DNA of 64,000 bases from Xenorhabdus japonica (lineage in GTDB: Bacteria > Pseudomonadota > Gammaproteobacteria > Enterobacterales > Enterobacteriaceae). The first letter of the stretch is position 1. Each line of letters opens with the position of its first letter. Below the pieces are notes generated by a model that had not been told where the DNA came from, searched no databases, and saw only the letters and a list, made by a program, of their open reading frames with translations. The stretch is from the NCBI RefSeq assembly GCF_900115195.1, contig NZ_FOVO01000020.1:1-64000 (forward strand), written 5' to 3'. The position numbers were made by a program, and so were the translations under genes. Shown piece after piece: positions 28,295-50,673 of this stretch.

Positions 28295-28918
28295 TTACTC
28301 CGTTTCAATGGCAGGTTGATTGAACCAAAGGTCAAGTTTTTGCTCTAGTTTATCGATGCCGATTTTTTTCAAAGTGGAGAAATACTCGATCTGAACATCA
28401 CCATCCAGAGAGGCTAATTCCTGACGAACTTTCGCCAATTGACTTTTACGAGCACCGGATGCCAGTTTATCGGCTTTAGTCAGCAATACCATGACAGGTA
28501 CCTGCATCACGACAGCCCATTCGATCATTTGCATATCCAGATCTTTCAGTGGATGGCGGATATCCATCAAAACCACCAACCCTAACAGGCATTCGCGTTT
28601 CTGGAGATACTCCCCTAAGGCTTTCTGCCATTTGCGCTTCATCTCTTCTGGTACTTCAGCGTAACCATAGCCCGGCAAGTCGACCAGGCGAACCCCTTCT
28701 TCGACCTCGAACAGGTTAATCAACTGAGTACGGCCAGGAGTTTTACTGGTACGCGCAAGGCTCTTTTGGCGGGTCAGTGCATTCAATGCGCTGGATTTAC
28801 CCGCATTTGACCGACCGGCAAACGCGACCTCAATGCCCACATCTTGAGGTAGGTGGCGAATATCAGGTGCGCTCGTAATAAAATGAGTCATATGATAGTT
28901 GTAGTTTTTGATGGTCAA
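28295..28918 (-). CDS. engB: Ribosome biogenesis GTPase EngB (YsxC/YihA)
   Basis: A 207-residue essential TRAFAC GTPase for 50S assembly. G1 is '[12 protein letters not shown]', G3 'VDLPGYGYA', G4 '[14 protein letters not shown]', and the switch I region '[15 protein letters not shown]' is complete. It is collinear with the E. coli protein over its whole length. It is convergent with spf, the normal arrangement. Confidence 0.96.
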
Positions 28919-29920
28919 AATGGTTATCTCCCCGAGGAATACACAAAAATAGCGTGGTGATTATACCGAGAGCAGCTGCTTGTGGACAGGCGTAACTTTA
29001 TTCCGATAAAGAACGGCATTCCGATAAAGAACGGCGAAGGTAGTCGGCGAAAAGTGAATATAATTCCCCTTGAGCTGTGGTCATAATGAAATAGACACCT
29101 TCTAAAATTGGCTTCAGTAAGCCAAAACAAGCTGAATTGCTGGGCACACTATGCTTGGAAGGCAATATATATAAAGCATCAGTCAATTAAAAAAGTCTGA
29201 ATCGAAAAACAATAGGTTACTCCATATCGGAAGAAATTCACGATAAGATCTTAGGGACTTTCATTGAGCGTGAACACTACATTTGATAGCCAATCTAACC
29301 TTTAAATATATGCCCCGGCGTTTCCCTTTAGTACAACTTTGATGAAGTAAAAGGGAATATATTAGATAATGTATTTTCAAAGTTAATTCTAAGCAGTATT
29401 AATTTAAATTACTATTCACCTTTGATATTTTTTATTCGTTCAAAAGATTTTCTTGGGAATTAAGCGTATTTTGCATGGGCACTCTCTAAAATAAAAAATA
29501 ATTTAGGTGGATAATATTTCATAATAGCGCTACCCATTTTTTATGTATAATTCTAAATTCTTTAATGTAATATATTATAAGGTTTTAATATTTGCATGTT
29601 AAAAATGTGATCAATATTCCATCTTAGTGTTTTTTTTATAAATCATGTTGTTTTTCCTAATGTTAGGAGGGTAAGATTCGGAAAAATTTACCCATGCATC
29701 ATAATCCTAATCAAAAAATAAAAAAGAATTACTACAACAAAAATTATTTTTATTTAAATAAATTTAATATCATAATTATTTTTATCTTAGCCAGAGCAGA
29801 TTAATAACTTCTAGTTATTGATAAAAAACCTGATTTTTGTTTTTGCATCTGTAATACTCTGTTTCAATAATAAGTATTGTACCCATAAAGAGAATGTTAT
29901 TTCTAAGGTAAATTACAGCT
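28919..29920. other. 1-kb gap between engB and the cycloserine-type operon
   Basis: No intact gene was found. At 29000-29035 an 18-base unit (attccgataaagaacggc) is repeated twice in tandem. Short minus-strand open frames near 28924-29186 read like a degraded coding sequence but could not be named. From about 29370 on the DNA is over 75% A+T. The left edge is a synteny break: in E. coli engB is not followed by the genes found here. The promoter of the operon should lie in 29750-29900. Confidence 0.5.
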
Positions 29921-31063
29921 ATGCCGAAAATTATTTCTATTATTTTACTTGCTCTAGCATTATTTACAGCGACATTTGCTGTAAATCTTCAAACACCATT
30001 ATACGGAGTTTATGCTGCTGGAAACAATATGAAGGCAACTGCCGTGACTGTCGCTTTTGCTGCTTATGTGGCAGGCCTGATGCCAACACTACTCTTATTA
30101 GGTGGTTTGTCGGATCGAATTGGTCGACGACTACCTATTACAATATCTCTGTTTCTTGTAACAATTGCTACGCTTCTTTTAGTCTTATTTCCTAACTGGG
30201 AAAGTCTTTTTGTTGCACGGGTACTACTTGGTATTGGTACAGGGTTAGTGACGACAGCAGGTACGGCCTACATGGTCGAGATTATGGGGAATGATGATGC
30301 TCGGCGTGCTGCCCTGATCGTAACATCTTCTACATCTCTCGGTTTTGGTGGGGGTGCGTTGGCCACAAGTTTAAGTTTAGGGATACAGGGGCCAACCCTT
30401 ATTCCCATTAGCTTTATTGTGCTATTTGTAATAGCTCCTATTCTTGCCATTATTGGACTTAAGATGCCACGTGTTGATGTACCTAAGCGCGTTTCGATCA
30501 TCAAACTTCCAGTGTTCCCGCCTAGAACATGGGTATTTGGTATTGCCATGGCCCTGGCATGGTCAACAACTGGAATGATAATTGCGGTAGTGCCATTAGA
30601 ACTAAAAACTCAGGATCTTGATGGTTGGACAGGCCTTGTCATTTTCTTAGCAATCTTTATAGGCTTTCTCTGCCAACCTATTGCACGTCGGATGGCTAAT
30701 CCAAAAGCACTAGCTTTAGGATTGTTACTAACTCCTCTCGGTTTCCTTGTTCTTCTTATAGGATTCTGGATTCAATCAATAACCTTAATACTGCTAGGTA
30801 CCTCTATTACTAGTGCAGCAAGCTATGGCTTTACCTATCTTTCGGCTTTATTCGAATTTTCTTCAAGAGCTCTAGATAATCGAGCTAGGGCAACAGCGGG
30901 TCTTTTTATTTATGCTTATATTGGATTTTCTCTCCCGGTCATTGCTAGTGGAGCTTTAGCTGATATGTTCGGCTTATTGCCCGCAATGGCAATATTCTCA
31001 GTGACCCAGATAATCATCACCTTAATTACTATTTGGCTCTGGAAAAAACATTCAGTCCTCTAA
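29921..31063 (+). CDS. MFS transporter, probable exporter of the cluster product
   Basis: A 380-residue major facilitator with about 12 predicted membrane segments. The loop 2-3 signature reads 'GGLSDRIGRRLPITISLFLV' and the TM5 (motif C) stretch 'GLVTTAGTAYMVEI' points to drug export. It is the first gene of a co-directional set with the DcsA, B, D, E and G homologues, 85 bases before the DcsA-like gene. The D-cycloserine cluster of Streptomyces lavendulae also contains an exporter gene (dcsJ), so export and self-protection are the natural reading; direct homology to DcsJ was not established. Confidence 0.8.
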   Translation: MPKIISIILLALALFTATFAVNLQTPLYGVYAAGNNMKATAVTVAFAAYVAGLMPTLLLLGGLSDRIGRRLPITISLFLVTIATLLLVLFPNWESLFVARVLLGIGTGLVTTAGTAYMVEIMGNDDARRAALIVTSSTSLGFGGGALATSLSLGIQGPTLIPISFIVLFVIAPILAIIGLKMPRVDVPKRVSIIKLPVFPPRTWVFGIAMALAWSTTGMIIAVVPLELKTQDLDGWTGLVIFLAIFIGFLCQPIARRMANPKALALGLLLTPLGFLVLLIGFWIQSITLILLGTSITSAASYGFTYLSALFEFSSRALDNRARATAGLFIYAYIGFSLPVIASGALADMFGLLPAMAIFSVTQIIITLITIWLWKKHSVL

Positions 31064-31148
31064 ATAGATAAGATTTTGACAGCCATAGATTCGATTTCAA
31101 AGGTAGTTCGTAAGAAAACTATTTTTTCATTGATGAAGGGGCGTTTAA

Positions 31149-31907
31149 GTGAGTATTTTAGATAAAAATCATAATCTTAATGTGTTAATTTCTCAGCAGC
31201 AATTAAATAAAAGTGGAGTAGATTGGCACCATGCTGTTTTTAGAGATATTGAATCTCGGCTTAGTGATGTCGATTTCCCCTGCGTTTTCTCGAAAAGAGC
31301 ATTTAGAAAGAATCTGTTGAAATTCATCTTCATAGAAAATTTTGATACAAGTGGTGTCCAACATCTGGGAAATGGAATTAAGGAATATGTTGAAATCTCG
31401 AAGAATTGGGATGGTGACCTAAATACAGCGTATCCACTTATTGTGGCATTCTCACAGAGTGTCATAGATGCTCAGTCTGTTGATGATTATCATGCGTTTG
31501 GTTGGAAAGTTCTTCAGAATTTACATTATATTGACTCTGTACCTTGGCCAGAGAACGTTAGTAAAGATCCTAATTCTTCATCTTGGTCCATGTGTTTTAA
31601 CGGAATGCAGTTATTCTGCAATATGAGTAGCCCTGCTAACCAAGTTCGCCGGAGCAGAAATCTTGGTAAGCACTTTATTCTAGTTATTAACCCGCGTGAG
31701 CGCTTCGATATTGTTGCTGGTGACACACCAGCTGGTCGTAGGGTTCGTTTCAATATCCGTGATCGCATAGATAAGTATGACGGCCTTCCTCGTTCCTTAC
31801 AACTTGGTTCTTATGGTTCCAATGCACTCGAGTGGCAGCAGTATGGTCTCTTGGAAGAAAACATTGAGAATACAGGTAAGTGTCCATTTTTGTTTAGGAA
31901 AAAATGA
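31149..31907 (+). CDS. dcsA: DcsA-like heme-dependent N-omega-hydroxy-L-arginine synthase (YqcI/YcgG family)
   Basis: A 252-residue protein of the YqcI/YcgG family, recognisable by 'DVDFPCVFSKRAFRKNLLKF' near the N-terminus and 'HFILVINPRERFDIVAGDTP' near the C-terminus. In D-cycloserine synthesis the family member DcsA is a heme enzyme that N-hydroxylates L-arginine; GntA of guanitoxin synthesis is another member that hydroxylates a guanidine. GTG 31149 follows 'gaaggggcg'. The neighbouring arginase gene would process its product to hydroxyurea. The assignment rests on family plus context; which His binds heme was not determined. Confidence 0.8.
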   Translation: MSILDKNHNLNVLISQQQLNKSGVDWHHAVFRDIESRLSDVDFPCVFSKRAFRKNLLKFIFIENFDTSGVQHLGNGIKEYVEISKNWDGDLNTAYPLIVAFSQSVIDAQSVDDYHAFGWKVLQNLHYIDSVPWPENVSKDPNSSSWSMCFNGMQLFCNMSSPANQVRRSRNLGKHFILVINPRERFDIVAGDTPAGRRVRFNIRDRIDKYDGLPRSLQLGSYGSNALEWQQYGLLEENIENTGKCPFLFRKK

Positions 31908-31994
31908 GCTTAGCACATTTTTTGCACATGATGGCAGAAGGTTTTAGGTAACCCAAAGTCTCCACTGACAATAATGAAAAGGAAATATTAATCC

Positions 31995-32816
31995 ATGATT
32001 GATCTTATTGTTTCTCAGGGGCGCGTAGCGGATAGAGCTGCACGTATGATTGAAGGTGCTGCACGTACAGCGAAAGCATTAGAAAAACGCTATGGTACTC
32101 AAAGCTATTTCATTGGAAAAAGTGCACCACCTGCCAATGATGATTGGAGTATCAGTCTTCCTCAAGCGAAGGAAACACTGGTTGAATTAAGGCAAGCAAT
32201 TGAAACAAGTATCAAGGGCAACAACCGTACGGTTATGCTTGCCAATACATGTTCGGCAAGTCTTGCTTCATTGCCAATTGTGGCAAGAGAGCATCCTGAG
32301 GCTGTAGTGCTGTGGATTGATGCACATGGGGATTTTAATACCCCAGAAACGACAAAATCAGGCTACCTCGGAGGTATGGTACTTTCTGCTGCTTGTGGTC
32401 TTTGGGATAGTGGGCATGGCTCAGGACTTTGCTCTGAACAAGTCATTCTAGTTGGTGCTCGTGATATAGACCCTGCTGAATATGAGCTTTTACAGAAAGC
32501 TGGTGTTCGGATTATCCCGCCAACAGAAGCAACACCTAGAAACATCTTGAATGCCATTGATGGTTCTCCTGTATGGATACATATTGATTGGGATGTACTT
32601 GAACCAGGTTTTTTGCCCGCCGATTACACGGTTCCGAATGGTATGTTGCCGTCACAAATTCAAACAATATTTGAAGAAATTCCTTTGGAGCAAATTTTAG
32701 GAATAGAACTGGCAGAGTTTAATGCTTCAACCGATGAAGAAAGTAATGAAAAAGCGCTTGCAATTATTCTCGATATTGTTGCTCCTGTGTTTAAGATGTT
32801 AGAGAGGGCTAAATAA
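31995..32816 (+). CDS. dcsB: DcsB-like N-omega-hydroxy-L-arginine amidinohydrolase (arginase family)
   Basis: A 273-residue ureohydrolase, the same length as DcsB, which splits N-omega-hydroxyarginine into hydroxyurea and ornithine. Metal ligands are visible as D109-A-H-x-D113 ('LWIDAHGDFNTP') and D198/D200 ('HIDWDVLEPGF'). The first metal motif, GGDHS in arginases, is here 'ANTCSAS' with Cys86 at the His position. A Cys at this place is a feature recalled for DcsB and marks it off from catabolic arginases. It follows the DcsA-like gene by 87 bases. A plain arginase seems unlikely in this setting. Confidence 0.82.
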   Translation: MIDLIVSQGRVADRAARMIEGAARTAKALEKRYGTQSYFIGKSAPPANDDWSISLPQAKETLVELRQAIETSIKGNNRTVMLANTCSASLASLPIVAREHPEAVVLWIDAHGDFNTPETTKSGYLGGMVLSAACGLWDSGHGSGLCSEQVILVGARDIDPAEYELLQKAGVRIIPPTEATPRNILNAIDGSPVWIHIDWDVLEPGFLPADYTVPNGMLPSQIQTIFEEIPLEQILGIELAEFNASTDEESNEKALAIILDIVAPVFKMLERAK

Positions 32817-32947
32817 TGGTTGATTGTGTCATACGGAAATATATCCATATCCTTTTTTCATACGAAGTGTTTTCGCCACAATTGCTCAGACTCTGTTAAA
32901 CAATCTTAATGCCAATCTATTGTATTTTTACGAAGGATAATTTTCTG

Positions 32948-33925
32948 ATGCCACTTTACAATAGTATTCTTGATACAATCGGTAATACACCTATCGTTAA
33001 GTTAAATCGTCTTGCGCCTAAGCATGTCACAGTCTATGTGAAAGTAGAGTCTTTCAATCCTGGTGGTTCGGTAAAGGATAGGCTTGCCCTTGCAGTGATC
33101 CTTGATGCAGAGTCTAAAGGATTACTGAAACCCGGTGATACAATCTGCGAATGTACCTCTGGCAATGTAGGTATTGCGTTGGCAATGGTGGCAGCAGCAC
33201 GCGGCTACAAGTTTGTAGCGGTGATGTCTGATACCTATTCGGAGGAACGACGTAAGCTAATGAGAGCCTATGGAGGAAAAGTTATTCTCTTCCCTGGTTC
33301 CGAAGGCAGTAGTGGCGGAAATCGTATAGCTGATGAGTTAGCAAGAAAATATGGTTGGTTTCGATCTAATCAGTTCAAAAATCCAGCCAATCCGGCCTAT
33401 CACCGTGAAACTACAGCAGCAGAAATCCTCAGTGATTTTGCAGGAAAGAGATTAGATTACTTTGTTACTGGTTTCGGTACTAGCGGAACTCTTACTGGCG
33501 TCGGTCAGATGCTAAAACTTGCACGGCCTAATGTACGCATCATTGCTACCGAACCAGAAAATGCAGCCGTGCTATCAGGTCAGACATGGAATGTACATCA
33601 AATTCAGGGCTGGGCCCCTAATTTTATACCGGAAGTACTCGATTCTACAGTTATTGATGAACTTCTGACGATTGATGAAGTCTCTGCTCGTGATACAGCG
33701 AGGCGTCTCTCCACTGAAGAAGGTATATTTGTGGGTATTTCAGCAGGAGCTACTTTGGCTACAGCACTTAATGTAGCTAAAAGCGCCCCAGAGGGTTCTG
33801 TATTACTCACAATGCTACCAGATACTGGTGAACGCTATCTGTCTACTTTCTTGCTCGAAGGAATTAATGAAGGCTCGGATGATGAATGGTTAGCTTCTTT
33901 AGGATCTTCCCTTAACGACTCTTAA
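32948..33925 (+). CDS. dcsD: DcsD-like O-ureido-L-serine synthase (cysteine synthase family)
   Basis: A 325-residue fold type II PLP enzyme. The Schiff-base lysine is K43 in 'FNPGGSVKDRLALAV', the substrate loop reads 'CTSGNVGIALAMVAAARGY' and the phosphate cup 'GTSGTLTGVG'. DcsD (324 residues) joins O-acetyl-L-serine with hydroxyurea to make O-ureido-L-serine and can also act as a cysteine synthase. The context favours the ureidoserine role. Start ATG 32948 follows 'gaaggat'; the ATG at 32909 gives an unlikely extension. Confidence 0.85.
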   Translation: MPLYNSILDTIGNTPIVKLNRLAPKHVTVYVKVESFNPGGSVKDRLALAVILDAESKGLLKPGDTICECTSGNVGIALAMVAAARGYKFVAVMSDTYSEERRKLMRAYGGKVILFPGSEGSSGGNRIADELARKYGWFRSNQFKNPANPAYHRETTAAEILSDFAGKRLDYFVTGFGTSGTLTGVGQMLKLARPNVRIIATEPENAAVLSGQTWNVHQIQGWAPNFIPEVLDSTVIDELLTIDEVSARDTARRLSTEEGIFVGISAGATLATALNVAKSAPEGSVLLTMLPDTGERYLSTFLLEGINEGSDDEWLASLGSSLNDS

Positions 33926-34014
33926 TTTGGGGAGGTCTTCCTTCTGAAATTAAACAACTGTGTTGTTTCATATCGTTTTTTTATAAGAAAAAATCATGTA
34001 ATTGGAGTGAATAT

Positions 34015-35130
34015 ATGAGGGAGTTCATACCAATAACTACTCGATTTATCAACCTGCCTAATGAATTTACGATGAAGCGTGGAGGTGTGATAAAGGGTGC
34101 ACGCATAGCTTATGAGGTTTTTGGGCAGTTAAATGCACAACATAATAATGTCATCTTGATCCTTGCTGGTCTTTCACCTGATGCTCATGCAGCTTCGCAT
34201 GCGGACGATCCAACGCCTGGTTGGTGGGAAAATATGTTAGGGTCAGGAAAGCCTATTGACACAGATCGTTGGTACGTGATTTGTATCAATCCATTAGGCA
34301 GTTGTAAAGGTTCAACAGGTCCGGCCTCAGTCAATCCAAATACAGGCAAACCCTATCGACTGGATTTTCCTGAGTTATCTATTGAGGATATGGCTGATGC
34401 AGCGGCCTTTACTGTATTTGCATTGGGCTTTGAATATTTGTCTTGCGTGGTAGGTGCTTCTATGGGAAGCATGGTTGCTCTGGCTTTGTTATATCGGTAT
34501 CCCTATCTGGCACGTAACCATATTAATATCTCTGGAGCGGTGCATTCTCTTCCGTTTTCTATTGCAATCCGCTCTTTGCAACGTGAGGCTATCCGGCTTG
34601 ATCCGAATTGGAGGAAGGGCCAATATGATGAGGAGAATTATCCGATAGACGGCATGCTTATAGCTCGTAAATTAGGCATGATAACTTACCGCTCAGCTCA
34701 AGAATGGGACAGTCGTTTCGGTCGTAATTACTTAAATTCTAGTCATCACGTAGATGAGAAACCGTTTGGTTTAGAATTTGAAGTGGAAAGTTATTTGGAA
34801 TGTCATGCACATCGCTTTTTGCGAACTTTTGATCCCAATAGTTATCTCTATCTGAGCCGTAGTATGGATTGGTTTGACCTTGGTGAATCTTATGGTAATG
34901 CTGCTGCTGAAGCTTTGTCTCGATTGTACATTGAGAAAGCTTTGGTGATTGGTGTACAGACTGACATTTTGTTTCCATTATGGCAACAGCAGCAGATTGC
35001 TGAGGGGTTGAGTGCAAGTGGTGCTAATGTACAGTTCCTGCCATTGGAATCACCGATAGGACATGATGCTTTTCTGGTTGATATAGACCGTTTCGGGCCA
35101 CCTGTAGCGACTTTTTTAGCGAAGCTATAA
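34015..35130 (+). CDS. dcsE: DcsE-like L-serine O-acetyltransferase (homoserine O-acetyltransferase family)
   Basis: A 371-residue alpha/beta-hydrolase acyltransferase of the MetX family. The nucleophile is S149 in 'VVGASMGSMVALALLYRYP', the Asp lies in 'VIGVQTDILFPLWQQQQ' and the His in 'ESPIGHDAFLVD'. The oxyanion area 'INPLGSCKGSTGPASVNPNT' is typical. DcsE (374 residues) is a MetX homologue that acetylates serine, giving the co-substrate for DcsD. MetX activity in methionine synthesis is an alternative, but the cluster setting argues for serine. Confidence 0.85.
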   Translation: MREFIPITTRFINLPNEFTMKRGGVIKGARIAYEVFGQLNAQHNNVILILAGLSPDAHAASHADDPTPGWWENMLGSGKPIDTDRWYVICINPLGSCKGSTGPASVNPNTGKPYRLDFPELSIEDMADAAAFTVFALGFEYLSCVVGASMGSMVALALLYRYPYLARNHINISGAVHSLPFSIAIRSLQREAIRLDPNWRKGQYDEENYPIDGMLIARKLGMITYRSAQEWDSRFGRNYLNSSHHVDEKPFGLEFEVESYLECHAHRFLRTFDPNSYLYLSRSMDWFDLGESYGNAAAEALSRLYIEKALVIGVQTDILFPLWQQQQIAEGLSASGANVQFLPLESPIGHDAFLVDIDRFGPPVATFLAKL

Positions 35131-35193
35131 TTTAATTTGGTAAGCAATCAGCGCTTATCATTTTTTTTCTTCCTTCAAAATGGAGGATTTGAT

Positions 35194-35940
35194 TTGTCCG
35201 CATATCCATTCAAAATTGCTCTTGTTACTGGTGCCAATCGTGGCATTGGATTCGAAACAGTACGCCAACTTGCTGAAAACGGAATCCATGTATTGTTAAC
35301 TGGTCGCAATCATGAGGAAACTACCAAAGCAGCGATTAAATTGAAGAGCGAAGGCCTTAATGTTGAAGCTTTAATACTGGATGTAACGAAGACGGATAGT
35401 ATCTTTGCCGCTGTCACAGAAGTAACTAGAAAATACGGGCGCCTTGATATCTTGATCAACAATGCAGGCATTCGAATTGAGGAGTATGGTAAACAACCAT
35501 CAGAACAGCCATTGCAACAATGGCGGGAAACATTCAACACTAATCTATTCGGTATTGTTGAAGTAACTACTGCTTTTCTGCCACTAATTCGTAAATCTAT
35601 AGCAGGGCGTATTGTTAATGTTTCTAGCCTGCTCGCTTCACTAAGTATGCATAGCGATCCAAGCTCTTATTCTTATAGCCCGATGTTTAAATCCCTTCCA
35701 GCCTATAGTGCCTCCAAAAGCGCTGTCAACTCTTGGACAGTACACTTGGCTTACGAATTACGCGAAACACCGATCAAGGTAAACTCTGTACATCCTGGTT
35801 ATACCAAGACTGATATGAATGAAGGTTCTGGTAAACTGGATATTTCGACAGGAGCTAAAACAACTGTCAGCATGGCTCTGCTCGATAGTAATGGACCAAC
35901 TGGTAGCTATATGCATATGGGAGAAATTGTGCCATGGTAA
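35194..35940 (+). CDS. Short-chain dehydrogenase/reductase embedded in the cycloserine-type operon
   Basis: A 248-residue classical SDR. The cofactor motif is 'ALVTGANRGIGFETVRQLAE', followed by 'LDVTKTD', 'LDILINNAGI' (NNAG), Ser in 'GRIVNVSSLLASL' and the catalytic Y-x3-K in 'PAYSASKSAVNSWT'. TTG 35194 is used because ggagg lies eight bases upstream (35182-35186); an in-frame GTG further up has no ribosome binding site. No SDR belongs to the known D-cycloserine pathway as far as I know. It may tailor the product, make a precursor, or give self-protection; the substrate is open. Confidence 0.82.
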   Translation: MSAYPFKIALVTGANRGIGFETVRQLAENGIHVLLTGRNHEETTKAAIKLKSEGLNVEALILDVTKTDSIFAAVTEVTRKYGRLDILINNAGIRIEEYGKQPSEQPLQQWRETFNTNLFGIVEVTTAFLPLIRKSIAGRIVNVSSLLASLSMHSDPSSYSYSPMFKSLPAYSASKSAVNSWTVHLAYELRETPIKVNSVHPGYTKTDMNEGSGKLDISTGAKTTVSMALLDSNGPTGSYMHMGEIVPW

Positions 35941-36024
35941 TTAGTTTCTTCGAGATTTGCATCGCTGAAAAATGAGAATACCAACACAATAATCTTTTTT
36001 TGGATCAAATATTGGAATTGTTCT

Positions 36025-36924
36025 ATGAATATTATTGCCTTGATTACCGATGAAATCAGTCTTCCAAACGATTATGATATGCCATTACTGCTTGATGCCT
36101 GCCAAACAATTGGTCTCACCGTGGAAGTATGTTTTTGGGAGGATAGGTCCATTGATTGGTCACGCTTTTATGCTGTTTTATTGCGTTCTCCTTGGAATTA
36201 TGTAGACCAATTACCTAAGTTTCTAGCTTGGTGTGAACATATTACACGTTTAACACACCTGTTTAATCCTTTATCGGTAGTACGATGGAATCTTGATAAA
36301 TTTTATCTGGTCGATCTTGCAGCACATGGAGTACCGATCGTACCGAGTAAGTTTATTAATTCCAACACAAACATACGGCAGGCTCTACGGGAATTTTTCA
36401 CTGGGAATCCTGAAATCAAAGAAATTGTGATAAAACCCACAGTTGGTGCTTACTCGAAGGATGTTAAACGCTATGCACGACAACTGGAAGATAAGGCTAT
36501 TAAACATATTAATAGTCTAATAGAAAAGGGTCATCATGTAATATTACAACCCTATTTGGAGTCAATTGATAGTGATGGGGAGACTAACTTGTCTTATTTT
36601 GACGGTGTTTATAGTCATGCTATCTGCAAGCGCGCTCTACTTATGCCAGATGGTACAGTGAATTCACCATTACAAGAATTTCGTAAGGCACGCTCTGCTG
36701 ATGAAGATGAACGTGCGGTTGCTACTGCTGTTCTCAATGCTGTAACATTACACTTACACCTTGAACAACCTCTTCTTTATGCGCGTATTGATCTTATTCG
36801 TGGCAATAATGGTCAGCCGATGGTATTGGAAGTAGAAATATGTGAGCCTTCTTTAAATCTGCCTTTTTCTGAAGGTAGTGCAATACAATTTGCAAAAGCG
36901 TTGGCTAAACGGATAGGTTGTTGA
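36025..36924 (+). CDS. dcsG: DcsG-like cycloserine synthetase (ATP-grasp)
   Basis: A 299-residue ATP-grasp ligase, the DcsG length. Visible are 'VLLRSPWNYVDQLPKFLAW', the start of the grasp domain 'RWNLDKFYLVDLAAHGVPIV', the ATP-lysine strand 'EIVIKPTVGAYSKDVKRY', 'VILQPYLESIDSDGETNLSY' and the metal-binding end 'LYARIDLIRGN' and 'LEVEICEPSLNLPFSEGSA'. DcsG closes O-ureido-D-serine to D-cycloserine with ATP. It is the last gene of the operon. The substrate stereochemistry here is unknown, since no racemase gene is present. Confidence 0.82.
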   Translation: MNIIALITDEISLPNDYDMPLLLDACQTIGLTVEVCFWEDRSIDWSRFYAVLLRSPWNYVDQLPKFLAWCEHITRLTHLFNPLSVVRWNLDKFYLVDLAAHGVPIVPSKFINSNTNIRQALREFFTGNPEIKEIVIKPTVGAYSKDVKRYARQLEDKAIKHINSLIEKGHHVILQPYLESIDSDGETNLSYFDGVYSHAICKRALLMPDGTVNSPLQEFRKARSADEDERAVATAVLNAVTLHLHLEQPLLYARIDLIRGNNGQPMVLEVEICEPSLNLPFSEGSAIQFAKALAKRIGC

Positions 36925-36988
36925 AACGTTGTAGTTATCCAGAGAGCTTTGGCATTATCTTAACTGTTATTAGCAAAATCTGCCGTAA

Positions 36989-37009
36989 ACCCTCGCCCAG
37001 AGCGAGGGT
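36989..37009 (+). terminator. Hairpin after the cycloserine-type operon
   Basis: accctcgc (36989-36996) pairs with gcgagggt (37002-37009) with a 5-base loop. No T run follows, so its strength as a terminator is uncertain. Confidence 0.5.
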
Positions 37010-37417
37010 GTCGTAAAAGGGTTGAGGTCATTTTTTCAACGCGTCAAGTTGAGCCCATATCACATTTTTTAGTGCCTGTTATTTGTACGAGTAACAATAC
37101 TAAAAAATGTATACGGGCACACTCTCAGAAGCCAAGTGCGCAGATTTTGAATGAATATCATCATACTGTCGAACATGCATTAGTTCCCAGTTTATGCTCC
37201 TTGGCGTGGAAAGCGCATCAATATTGAGGTTATTCACAAAATGACCATTATCAAAATGTGCGAATATAAACGTCGTATCAATGGAATTCCCCTCTGTTCA
37301 CCTAAAATACTCGTAAATGTAGGTAAATCTTTGGAACTTAATGCGATAGGGAATTAAACTTAAAAAGTTTTGTTGTTATGAGTTTTATTGTTGACCTCAA
37401 AAATAAAGGAATCATTA
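37010..37417. other. Gap between the cycloserine-type operon and ppiA
   Basis: No gene was recognised. A coherent open stretch of about 33 codons near 37126-37230 ('QKPSAQILNEYHHTVEHALV...') looks like a coding relic but was not identified. The fic-type genes that flank ppiA and pabA in E. coli are absent. ppiA's ribosome binding site (aaagga) is at the right end. Confidence 0.4.
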
Positions 37418-46824: not shown

Positions 46825-47241
46825 TATTTTTTCCTGCTATGTAGTCAGAATAGAGTTGTAGTCAAAATAGAGTTGTAGTCAGAATAGATTTATCGATTAC
46901 TGATTATCGTACAGTTTATTAGTTTTATACCCAATATATTTCTAACCGCATCGCAGAAGCCAGTAGGTGCCCTCCTTATTATTTATATAAGTCTAAATTA
47001 TTTATATGAACGTAAATTATATGAATATAAAAAATAATTTTGAATTTTAACTCCGGAAAACGGATTTATATTCAATATGTGATAACCATTGTTTATCAGG
47101 CGATAAGAATATTTCATTAAGCACTTTGCCTAAAAGTTTCCTAATGTATTTTAAGTATGTGTAAGTGTTATTTTTTTCTCTAAATTTGGACATCAATGCT
47201 TAATTGCTGGAAAAGAACCATATTTTATGAGGTACTCATAT
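46825..47241. promoter_or_regulatory. Intergenic region between murQ and the invasin gene, with a tandem repeat
   Basis: This divergent region must hold promoters for both units. At 46841-46891 a 17-base unit (gtagtcagaatagagtt) is repeated three times with two base changes. At about 46927 starts a 'tacccaatatatttct' word shared with dispersed palindromic repeats elsewhere in the window. No ORF was seen. Confidence 0.55.
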
Positions 47242-50200
47242 ATGGACTCGTATATTAGTAAAAAGTTCGTTAGATTTTTAGTCTTTATATATTCGATACT
47301 TATATTTCCACTCACATCATTGAGTGCATTTGCTGTGGATGGAAAAAAATATGAACATCAATTGCAAAAAAAACTCTTAGAAAATCAGGAGAGTGAAAAT
47401 AATCTCAATGATAAGGAAAATGAAACAGCGGGTTTGATTGCCAGAAATATTCGAACTGTTAGCAATGTGTTGTCATCATCACCGTCTGAGCTTACTGAAC
47501 AAGCTAAAGCTTATGCACTGGGAAAAATAAATAGCGCGGTAAATAGTGAAGCACAAAAGTGGCTATCGCAATTTGGTACAGCCAAAATTAATTTTTCTAT
47601 GGATAGAAAAGGAAAATTAGATAACGGATCTTTGGACTTATTGTTACCACTTTACGATAACAAATCCGATTGGCTATTTTTTTCACAGTTGGGTTATCGC
47701 AATAAAGACAGCCGACATACTCTGAATTTAGGATTTGGTGGGCGTTATTTTACACCAAGCTGGATGTATGGATTGAATTCTTTCTATGACTTTGATGTCA
47801 CGGGTAATAATAAACGTATCGGTTTAGGGGGCGAGGCATGGACAGATTATGCCAAGTTCTCTGCCAATACTTATTTGCGTGTGAGTGACTGGCATGATTC
47901 ACCACATGAAAAAGGATGGGAAGAACGCCCTGCCAACGGTTTTGATATCAATGGTGAATTCTTCCTGCCTGTTTACCCGAATATTGGCGGTAAGTTAGCC
48001 TATGAACAGTATTTTGGCGATCAAGTCGCTTTGTTCAATCGTGATACCAAGCAGAAAGACCCAAGTCTGGCTCGATTTGGGGTGAACTATACACCTGTTC
48101 CACTGGTGACCATGGGAGTTGATTATAAACTTGGCAGTGGCGGACACAGTGAAACGCTGTTCCAAACCAATCTTAATTACAGATTCGGCGTACCGTTTGA
48201 AGCCCAGCTATCATCAGATAGCGTTGCATCTATGCGTACATTGGCAGGCAGCCGCTATGATTTGGTGGAAAGAAATAACCAGATTGTTCTTGATTACCGT
48301 AAGAAAGGTGAAAAAGAAGTGTTGCTGAATATTCAGCAACAGAATATTACGGGATATAGCTACCAAAGATGGGCTCCGATACATGCCACTGTCACACCTA
48401 AGGACGCGAAACTGGAATGGCAGCTAAATGATTCATTCGCTCATGCGCAGGGAGAAGTTACTGAAGGTGTGAACCCTATCGGGCTGACACTGCCAAAATA
48501 TGACCCTGACTCTAAAACTGACAATACCTATGTGCTCAGTTTTACGGCGAAAGACAGCAATGGCAAAGAATCTAAACCCAGCAATATAACCGTCAAAGTT
48601 GAGCCATTTGTTTTAAAAGAAGATGTGACGAAAGAGGTGGTTAAAACCGGCAAGACTGATGAAGTGGCCTACAAATTGCTGGCGACCATCACTCACGGTA
48701 CAAAAGATAAGGACCCCCTTGCTAAACTGAAAGTCAGTAATTTGCAGTGGTCTGTCGATGAGCCTAACACTGACAAAGTTAAATGGGTGCAAAGTGACAC
48801 AACGAATGACAAAGGGCAGTTAGAGGCAACGGTAAGCAGTACACAACTGCTTAAGGATGTGAAGGTTTACCTGACAATGGACGGAATGCCTAAAAAAGAA
48901 GTCAATAATCTCAATTTCGCGAAGGTAGCTGAATCTAAGTACAAAGTTAAGGTTGAAACTAAAGAGAGCGGTCCGTTGGTGGTTGGTAAAAACGAGGGTT
49001 ACATTTTTACTGCAACTGTAACTGACGCAGCTGGCAATCTTCTGAAAGGGAAAGATGTGAAAGTTGATTGGAGCGTTAAGGGTGGCCTTCCGGATGGTGT
49101 GACATGGCTAAATGAGAAAAAAACTGATAAAACGGATGAAAATGGTCAAATATCAGCGACTTTAGTCAGTAATAAAGCTGCAAAAGATATCATTGTTGAA
49201 GTGACAATAGATGGTGCTGAGAAAGCATCTGCTAAACCTGTAGAATTCACTGAAGATGATTCTGCAACAAGCGGTATTACCTGGACAGGAGCGCAGGAAT
49301 ATGAGGCCGTGAAAGGTAAGCAGCATGTGGTTGCTGTTAACATCCAGGATATTACTAAGTTTAAACCAGAGTACACTTATAATATAACCTTCGACAAGGA
49401 CAAGTACCCTGGCCTCAAGAGTGCCAAATTATCGTCCCCTACTACTCTTAGGAAGCAGATGACTTTCACTTTTGAAAGTACCCAAGAAACCGAACCAGGA
49501 GTGATAGAGCTTACCCTCACAGAGGCGCAGAGTGGTAAGACAGTCAAAATTTCGTCACCTCCGATATCCTTTAAAGCAGGACTTAATGCTATTAAAGTTG
49601 GTTCGTTTGAAATGGTCAATATCAATACGAATAATTACAAGGCGGATGGGCAAGATAAGGTTAACTTGAAGATAAATGTTAATTATTCAGCTGGTGGTCC
49701 GGCAAGAAATCTCAGTATTGATCCTAGCAAAATTGAGTGGTCGACTGACGTCGTCGATAAGCTTAAAGATAAATTCACATTCACAGTTGAATCGCCAACA
49801 ACAAATGACCGTGGGGAACTGTATGCCAACATGGTATCTAATGTAAGTATTTGGAAGCGTGGGAATGGCGTTAAGCCGAAAGTTAAATTACCTACTAGTG
49901 ATGCAAACGGTGGGCAGGAAGTCGACCTGAAAGATGATCGGAGTATACTCTTTAATCCAATTCCGAAACGTGCGCAGCTTCATGTATTTAATAAAGATAA
50001 GACCGAAGTTAATTATACCTATAAAGCCGATAAACATGGGCCTAGTAACGTTTTCAACTCGCTACAAGCATATCTACTTTATGAGGAGGATGGGAAGCGC
50101 CTGCCAGCTAATGGTACGGAGTTTGATGTTACCTATGAAGCTGATGAACACGATTCTATAGGTAATCGTTTTATAGATAAGAATAGTGGCTTAATTTCTT

Positions 50201-50673
50201 TCAATATCACACCTAAAGATCGGTTCGAGTACGTAGTACTGGAGGAGCGGACGTTCAGGGCAACGTTAACGGATAAGAGCACATTCGAGAGGACTGCGTA
50301 CGAATACCATTGGAAACCTGAGCGCTGGTTCCTGCTGATGGGAGTGGAAGCGCAGGCGCTCAACCAGACTAAGAATCAATATTGCCCTACAAGAGAGGGG
50401 CTTGAGGATGTAAAAGAAACTGATGTATGGAACTATAATGAGATGGGAGATGGAGAGACACTATTGAATGAATTCGAGGAGATAGTGGATTGGGGCTTCT
50501 TTACAGTTTCAGTAAAAGGGAGCTACCAACCCAAACCAAGTGGGACAACTTTCATAAATGTTCTAAAGATGGATAAAGATAAATTTAAACCAATCGATCT
50601 TACAAACATAAACGAGATTGGCAACCCTGATATTCCGCAACCAGTTGCTTGTTTATTAGGGATAAAGAGGTAG
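47242..50673 (+). CDS. Invasin/intimin-like inverse autotransporter adhesin
   Basis: A 1143-residue outer membrane adhesin. It has a signal peptide ('FVRFLVFIYSILIFPLTSLS...AFA'). The beta-barrel domain covers about residues 60-345, with intimin-type landmarks 'AKINFSMDRKGKLDNGSLDLL', 'WLFFSQLGYRNKDSRHTLNL' and 'FDINGEFFLPVYPNIGGKLA'. Several Ig-like domains follow; the Big_1 types at about 450-680 repeat 'W.vk/vd..TND/TDE.GQL/I.AT..S'. The last 100 residues hold two Cys ('NQYCPT', 'PVACLLG'), as in the disulfide-closed tip of invasin. ATG 47242 is preferred (atgagg 10 bases upstream) over ATG 47227. The receptor is unknown; a role in nematode or insect colonisation is inferred. Confidence 0.9.
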   Translation: MDSYISKKFVRFLVFIYSILIFPLTSLSAFAVDGKKYEHQLQKKLLENQESENNLNDKENETAGLIARNIRTVSNVLSSSPSELTEQAKAYALGKINSAVNSEAQKWLSQFGTAKINFSMDRKGKLDNGSLDLLLPLYDNKSDWLFFSQLGYRNKDSRHTLNLGFGGRYFTPSWMYGLNSFYDFDVTGNNKRIGLGGEAWTDYAKFSANTYLRVSDWHDSPHEKGWEERPANGFDINGEFFLPVYPNIGGKLAYEQYFGDQVALFNRDTKQKDPSLARFGVNYTPVPLVTMGVDYKLGSGGHSETLFQTNLNYRFGVPFEAQLSSDSVASMRTLAGSRYDLVERNNQIVLDYRKKGEKEVLLNIQQQNITGYSYQRWAPIHATVTPKDAKLEWQLNDSFAHAQGEVTEGVNPIGLTLPKYDPDSKTDNTYVLSFTAKDSNGKESKPSNITVKVEPFVLKEDVTKEVVKTGKTDEVAYKLLATITHGTKDKDPLAKLKVSNLQWSVDEPNTDKVKWVQSDTTNDKGQLEATVSSTQLLKDVKVYLTMDGMPKKEVNNLNFAKVAESKYKVKVETKESGPLVVGKNEGYIFTATVTDAAGNLLKGKDVKVDWSVKGGLPDGVTWLNEKKTDKTDENGQISATLVSNKAAKDIIVEVTIDGAEKASAKPVEFTEDDSATSGITWTGAQEYEAVKGKQHVVAVNIQDITKFKPEYTYNITFDKDKYPGLKSAKLSSPTTLRKQMTFTFESTQETEPGVIELTLTEAQSGKTVKISSPPISFKAGLNAIKVGSFEMVNINTNNYKADGQDKVNLKINVNYSAGGPARNLSIDPSKIEWSTDVVDKLKDKFTFTVESPTTNDRGELYANMVSNVSIWKRGNGVKPKVKLPTSDANGGQEVDLKDDRSILFNPIPKRAQLHVFNKDKTEVNYTYKADKHGPSNVFNSLQAYLLYEEDGKRLPANGTEFDVTYEADEHDSIGNRFIDKNSGLISFNITPKDRFEYVVLEERTFRATLTDKSTFERTAYEYHWKPERWFLLMGVEAQALNQTKNQYCPTREGLEDVKETDVWNYNEMGDGETLLNEFEEIVDWGFFTVSVKGSYQPKPSGTTFINVLKMDKDKFKPIDLTNINEIGNPDIPQPVACLLGIKR

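Follow-up and report, generated by a model that had tools for sequence, protein, structure and literature searches.

A cycloserine-type gene set without a dedicated racemase in Xenorhabdus japonica as a candidate source of L-cycloserine

Can a gene set that lacks the dedicated racemase of D-cycloserine synthesis still make a cycloserine, and if so, of which hand? The question is raised by a locus of Xenorhabdus japonica on contig NZ_FOVO01000020.1 (assembly GCF_900115195.1), whose first 64,000 nucleotides we analysed (hereafter, the window). Seven genes lie there in one direction on the + strand (29921–36924), in the order major facilitator superfamily (MFS) exporter, dcsA, dcsB, dcsD, dcsE, short-chain dehydrogenase/reductase (SDR) and dcsG. 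Judged by their sequences, the products of dcsB, dcsD, dcsE and dcsG are cycloserine-pathway enzymes by a wide margin (57–78% identity), and it is highly probable that the set makes a cycloserine of one hand or the other. We read the locus as an inserted, apparently functional dcs-type pathway without a dedicated racemase, making most likely L-cycloserine, a reading to which we give a probability of about 0.46. An earlier note on the window had named six of the seven reading frames, with the MFS gene leading; all six are present on the + strand with the lengths it had given, and its list had overlooked the SDR gene between dcsE and dcsG.

Four of the enzymes were identified by comparison with solved structures (3x43, 6lug, 3vvl and 6jil), whose chains we take to be from Streptomyces lavendulae. 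The dcsD-like gene (32948–33925, + strand, 325 aa), a putative O-ureido-L-serine synthase, reached 568.7 bits with the O-ureido-L-serine synthase 3x43 (77.5% identity) versus 311.8 bits with the best cysteine synthase, and the lysine of its SVKDR motif is present. Its frame is open from 32909 (338 aa), and 32948 is the likely start because the 3x43 alignment begins at Met14 of the 338-aa frame. The dcsB-like gene (31995–32816, + strand, 273 aa) would encode an N-omega-hydroxyarginine amidinohydrolase: its product scored 424.3 bits to 6lug, the N-omega-hydroxy-L-arginine amidinohydrolase (68.9% identity), versus 75.7 bits to arginase, and it keeps Cys86, where arginase 2ef4 and the entries 7eul and 7euq have His. 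For the dcsE-like, MetX-type serine O-acetyltransferase gene (34015–35130, + strand, 371 aa) the scores were 577.3 bits to 3vvl (69.4% identity) and 247.3 bits to the next MetX-type entry; the structure database names 3vvl only 'Homoserine O-acetyltransferase', and we take it to be DcsE. The motifs of Ser149, Asp317 and His350, presumably the catalytic triad of DcsE, are present. Finally, the dcsG-like gene (36025–36924, + strand, 299 aa), a candidate ATP-grasp cycloserine synthetase, gave 395.5 bits with 6jil ('Cycloserine biosynthesis protein DcsG'; 56.9% identity), the only other row having an E value of 0.41, and 486.9 bits with the NCBIfam model NF058666 (cut-off 360).

The least secure assignment is the dcsA-like gene (31149–31907, + strand, GTG start, 252 aa), a YqcI/YcgG family protein and presumed heme N-hydroxylase, which was placed at family level by Pfam YqcI_YcgG PF08892 (189.1 bits). 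The GntA model NF041366 gave 56.6 bits, below its cut-off of 145, and the AglA structures gave 92–94 bits. A search of the 29 further Xenorhabdus genomes yielded two more carriers, X. stockiae DSM 17904 and X. innexi DSM 16336, whose DcsA copies are 73.0% and 70.2% identical to that of the window, respectively. The proposal of the earlier note that five genes match the Dcs enzymes is upheld by the best solved matches for DcsB, DcsD, DcsE and DcsG; for DcsA it has support at family level only.

Two labels speak against these identities: NCBIfam calls DcsD 'cysK' (387.1 bits, over the cut-off) and DcsE 'MetX' (NF001209, 427.6 bits, over the cut-off), and no DcsD model was seen among the 25 of 37 NCBIfam families listed. 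In our judgement the comparison to solved enzymes outweighs these labels. Ordinary arginase, CysK and MetX identities were rejected, as their scores were far lower than those to the cycloserine-pathway structures. The earlier note had held that its reading would fail if the proteins aligned better to such primary-metabolism enzymes, or if a dcsC gene making D-cycloserine lay elsewhere; DcsB, DcsD, DcsE and DcsG align far better to the cycloserine enzymes, and no DcsC was found in the genome.

That absence was examined in the whole X. japonica genome (3.56 Mb, 92 contigs, listed as 100% complete). A search with PF01678, which DcsC is expected to match by its kinship to DapF, returned a single 278-aa DapF (two half-domains in one gene) near hemC-like and xerC-like genes. 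The same search gave one DapF gene each in the other two carriers (genomes G402 and G411), and DcsC is missing from 3 of 3 carriers. For DcsI we searched the X. japonica genome with PF07478; the single strong hit, at 215.4 bits, was a D-Ala-D-Ala ligase (Ddl) of 311 aa between murC-like and ftsQ-like genes. Further matches were weak (35.8, 28.3 and 20.8 bits; two above the cut-off of 24) and fell in frames of 453, 596 and 1094 aa, which were taken, by their length, for other ATP-grasp enzymes. With one DapF and one full Ddl, the latter in the mur cluster, DcsC and DcsI are absent from the genome as a whole and not just from the window, as far as the earlier note had seen. A DcsC elsewhere in the genome and a second strong Ddl were thus both rejected by these searches.

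From the gene content we infer the reactions, their stereochemistry, the export and the target as follows. DcsA would N-hydroxylate L-arginine, and DcsB would convert hydroxyarginine to hydroxyurea and ornithine. DcsE would provide O-acetyl-L-serine, a step presumably taken over by CysE in the four-gene relatives of X. stockiae and X. innexi, and DcsD would join O-acetyl-L-serine and hydroxyurea to O-ureido-L-serine. DcsG would then cyclise O-ureido-L-serine at the expense of ATP, with no prior inversion, and the MFS protein would export the product, which would act on pyridoxal phosphate (PLP) enzymes. L-cycloserine inhibits serine palmitoyltransferase and transaminases, and its use to block the synthesis of ceramide has been described. 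The first steps follow the described Dcs pathway, in which DcsA and DcsB lead to hydroxyurea and DcsE to O-acetyl-L-serine (PMC10214352). The inversion of O-ureidoserine has a racemase of its own there, reviewed in PMC8142540.

DcsA, DcsB, DcsD and DcsG appear to be the minimal set for O-ureido-L-serine plus its cyclisation, and this set needs no racemase. We favour the L form because DcsC is absent from 3 of 3 carriers, because the core needs no racemase, and because there is no second Ddl in the X. japonica genome; it is the simplest prediction, and an unproven one. Compared with 6jil, the three Xenorhabdus DcsG proteins share 18 fixed non-conservative changes, including V140 in the KPT-x-G loop, a position at which orphan homologues also have V. 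On a bolder version, which we hold still more tentatively, the racemase-less Xenorhabdus clusters would be dedicated L-cycloserine pathways, with a DcsG switched to, or tolerating, O-ureido-L-serine, and the product would serve the bacterium, a symbiont of nematodes, as a PLP-enzyme inhibitor directed against insect or competitor metabolism and not against the cell wall. An anti-insect role of the product is plausible.

Several observations weigh against the L form. The DcsG of S. lavendulae reportedly works on the D-isomer, and the DcsG studied here is a clear orthologue of that D-cycloserine synthetase (6jil, NF058666). A 410-aa homologue of the broad-specificity racemase Bsr is present in all three carriers, and the X. 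japonica genome also encodes a 232-aa cysteate-racemase-like (CuyB-type) protein (224.4 bits, over the cut-off); either could supply O-ureido-D-serine. It is possible, though we consider it less likely than the L form, that D-cycloserine is made, with the inversion carried out by another host racemase (Bsr, Alr, DadX or the cysteate-racemase-like protein) and with MFS export serving as self-protection. The Bsr copy of X. japonica matched 4dyj ('broad specificity amino acid racemase') at 452.8 bits, and NF009879, named only 'alanine racemase', was over its cut-off in all three carriers. PF01168 had six matches in each carrier, one of them the Bsr homologue, and PF01177 had two matches in X. japonica, one in G402 and two in G411. 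However, the N-terminus of Bsr is signal-peptide-like (by eye), which makes the protein probably periplasmic and so probably in the wrong compartment; we take the periplasm to be the location of the Bsr family. Alr and DadX, for their part, are of narrow specificity and are themselves cycloserine targets. Moreover, neither a Ddl nor an adjacent exporter was present among the open reading frames listed at the four-gene clusters of X. stockiae and X. innexi; for Ddl this result covers the cluster loci and not the genomes as a whole.

The exporter adds to the case for the D form. The MFS gene (29921–31063, + strand, 380 aa; Pfam MFS_1, 80.6 bits) has its nearest relatives on three Rhodobacterales plasmids (65–71% identity) and in 3 of 398 genomes (57–70%). 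At 6 of 6 loci of these relatives (57–71% identity) the adjacent, divergent gene encodes a MocR-type GntR-aminotransferase regulator, a count that has no baseline from matched MFS controls; at 2 of the 6 the exporter gene is followed by one for a D-Ala-D-Ala ligase. The two ligases and four of the MocRs were confirmed by Pfam or NCBIfam models; the other two MocRs were taken from record annotation and tblastn. Of 7 relatives at 34–40% identity, 4 have a MocR-like gene nearby and none has a Ddl; two of the 7 are near-identical plasmids of one species, and the MocRs of this more distant group are only 23–28% like the others. In Brevibacillus brevis the MocR protein DdlR controls a D-Ala-D-Ala ligase (PMC4944035, PMC6677901), Ddl variants are described as conferring D-cycloserine resistance (PMC7691350), and self-resistance to cycloserine is described as acting via Ddl and a transporter (PMC6804068). 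In our reading of these neighbourhoods, the exporter family would handle a PLP-reactive D-Ala analogue, that is, cycloserine; the neighbours support a cycloserine and lean towards its D form, since a MocR and Ddl pairing is expected for a defence against D-cycloserine. Among NCBIfam models the MocRs come closest to EhuR, an ectoine-utilisation regulator (346–354 bits, below the cut-off of 480), which counts against a cycloserine exporter. The L product proposed by the earlier note is in keeping with the lack of DcsC and DcsI, and is challenged by the other racemases and by exporter relatives whose MocR and Ddl neighbours fit the D form better.

L-cycloserine also has to be weighed against end products that are no plain cycloserine. 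The SDR gene sits within the set, and nothing like it lies close to the four-gene clusters; DcsA with DcsB alone would give hydroxyurea, according to the pathway described in PMC10214352. Free O-ureido-L-serine, hydroxyurea or an SDR-modified cycloserine might thus be the product, and we regard this as unlikely: all three carriers retain a DcsG that is under constraint, and the SDR is generic, about 47% identical to its best plasmid relatives among the matches listed. Its frame spans 35137–35940 on the + strand, with a likely TTG start at 35194, preceded by GGAGG (35194–35940, 248 aa). Pfam adh_short matched it at 180.2 bits, its best solved match was an alcohol dehydrogenase (124.3 bits), and its solved matches showed no link to amino-acid chemistry.

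How the set came to lie in this genome can be read from its flanks, which we recognised from sequence as polA-engB on one side and ppiA-pabA-argD-crp on the other; polA, engB, ppiA and pabA co-occur in other genomes of the genus. In the nearest relatives by EngB (99%; G392 and G415) the engB-ppiA junction is empty, and the next relatives (98%; G414 and G412) have no ppiA within the stretch compared. The DNA of G415 matches that of the window up to 29074 and again from 37187, at 94–95% identity. The empty-site match ends at 29074 (L077, with a further 20-base match at 29123–29142) or at 29079 (L076) and resumes at 37187, which places an inserted block at approximately 29080–37186, between engB and ppiA. 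Since the DNA of these relatives matches on both sides, this block of about 8.1 kb is a recent gain or relocation in this lineage. Within the block, codon GC3 is 28–35%, versus 33–50% in seven neighbouring genes, a weak sign. Separately, ppiA follows engB within about 1.5 kb in 17 of the 28 other genus genomes with a full engB locus and does not do so in 11 (window 28295–37387 and L076–L103; the remaining genome, G410, had only a spurious engB match and was left out), and the junction is perhaps a hotspot for insertions in Xenorhabdus.

A set that is silent or decaying, with no product at all, would be a further explanation. The SDR start codon is weak, a terminator-like hairpin lies inside the operon, and the cluster has a patchy distribution, being present in 3 of 30 genus genomes. 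We find this very improbable, as all seven frames are open and uninterrupted, the catalytic motifs are kept, and the dN/dS ratio (NG86) of the four shared genes was 0.072–0.129 in 12 of 12 pairwise comparisons. In comparisons with the window's copies dS exceeds 1, and firm values come only from the pair X. stockiae–X. innexi, with a dN/dS of 0.106–0.118 at a dS of 0.43–0.63. The dcs genes are under purifying selection. The hairpin, followed by a T-run between dcsE and the SDR gene (35138–35170, + strand), is perhaps an attenuator and is not significant alone: six terminator-like sites were found in the region versus a mean of 5.9 in shuffled sequences, and a promoter scan of the region likewise gave no enrichment.

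The clusters of the other two carriers differ from the set in X. japonica in size and place. In X. stockiae and X. innexi, dcsA, dcsB, dcsD and dcsG are contiguous and lie at a different chromosomal site. Upstream of them is an fdhD-like gene; downstream, on the opposite strand, is a gene of about 700 aa, which we take to be pRiA4b ORF-3-like. The four shared enzymes are 70–87% identical to those of the window, and DcsC is likewise lacking. No relatives of the window's MFS, DcsE or SDR were found in the flanks of these clusters at E values up to 1; about 5 kb past dcsG, both species have an MFS gene of 471 aa that is unrelated to the exporter of the window. Searching the 30 genus genomes with DcsE gave a strong match to the window's own copy alone and one weak match elsewhere (E = 9.8e-5). 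At first the 70% identity among DcsG proteins of the genus seemed to us to prove separate acquisitions, a view that was dropped: DcsG identity is 70.2% between the window and X. stockiae and 85.6% between X. stockiae and X. innexi, and DapF identity is 88.3% and 94.9%, respectively. As DapF divergence scales like that of DcsG, a single old acquisition followed by moves would fit as well.

Apart from the genus itself (3 of 30 genomes over the NF058666 cut-off), DcsG passed the cut-off in 1 of 392 sampled genomes of the family, the window's own, and in 2 of 398 sampled genomes of the phylum, the window's own and an orphan in G689; 36 of the 398 match NF058666 at E <= 0.001. The orphan (locus L006) scored 376.7 bits, adjoins a gene recognised as etfB-like, and reads TEPSLFF versus CEPSLNL in four cluster-borne DcsG proteins. 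NF058666 was rejected as sole proof of DcsG, its cut-off being probably too lax because this orphan passes it and yet lacks the DcsG motif. The DcsG-like ATP-grasp proteins at L006, L007 and L008 are all orphans beside etfB-like genes, in genomes of the same taxonomic class as X. japonica. DcsG clusters outside Pseudomonadota were sought in the plasmid collection and in one contig scan with close-relative DcsG patterns. Seven plasmid records matched DcsG, with no Pantoea plasmid among them, and one (H7) is a fragment in which no dcs neighbours are annotated; the contig scan returned three loci, one of them (L030) a 30% match. DcsB-like 'arginases' occur on rhizobial plasmids (L063, L064 and L065; 55.8–64.3% identity), and they were rejected as further dcs clusters at these three loci, those examined of 173 matching records, with no dcsA, dcsD or dcsG nearby.

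The locus is mostly explained as a racemase-less, functional-looking variant of a known pathway. It resembles the D-cycloserine (dcs) cluster of S. lavendulae in its orthologues of DcsB, DcsD, DcsE and DcsG and in a DcsA-family enzyme, and differs in that the X. japonica genome is without the DcsC racemase and the DcsI ligase and the set contains an MFS exporter and an SDR. L-cycloserine is said to be produced by Erwinia uredovora, an enterobacterial relative. We know of no gene cluster for this product in E. uredovora, and, to our knowledge, no genes have been assigned to natural L-cycloserine biosynthesis; a search for literature joining 'L-cycloserine' with Pantoea found none. If our reading is true, the set is a candidate gene set for L-cycloserine, and the handedness of a cycloserine would depend on whether one racemase is present and on the choice made by DcsG. 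The locus would also place cycloserine biosynthesis in Gram-negative insect pathogens besides Streptomyces and name a probable family of cycloserine exporters. The earlier note knew of no such pathway in Xenorhabdus, a view that needs correcting: a taxonomy paper that compares eight taxa gives an antiSMASH 'cycloserine' prediction for just one of them, X. bovienii subsp. africana XENO-1 (PMC10371910). That entry shares with ours the genus and a predicted cycloserine cluster; it is recorded as a plus sign in the table and as one of several listed names, which give no gene content, racemase or product (PMC10371910).

Two further observations were made. On a Sulfuriferula nivalis plasmid (L111), a distant relative of the MFS exporter shares its operon with genes for a cysteine-synthase-family protein, two ATP-grasp proteins and a PhzF-family protein and with a gene annotated as argH; together they may encode a small amino-acid pathway unrelated to the present one. 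In the window itself, positions 47227–50673 encode an 1148-aa protein that matches intimin and invasin models, each below its curated cut-off, and is inverse-autotransporter-like.

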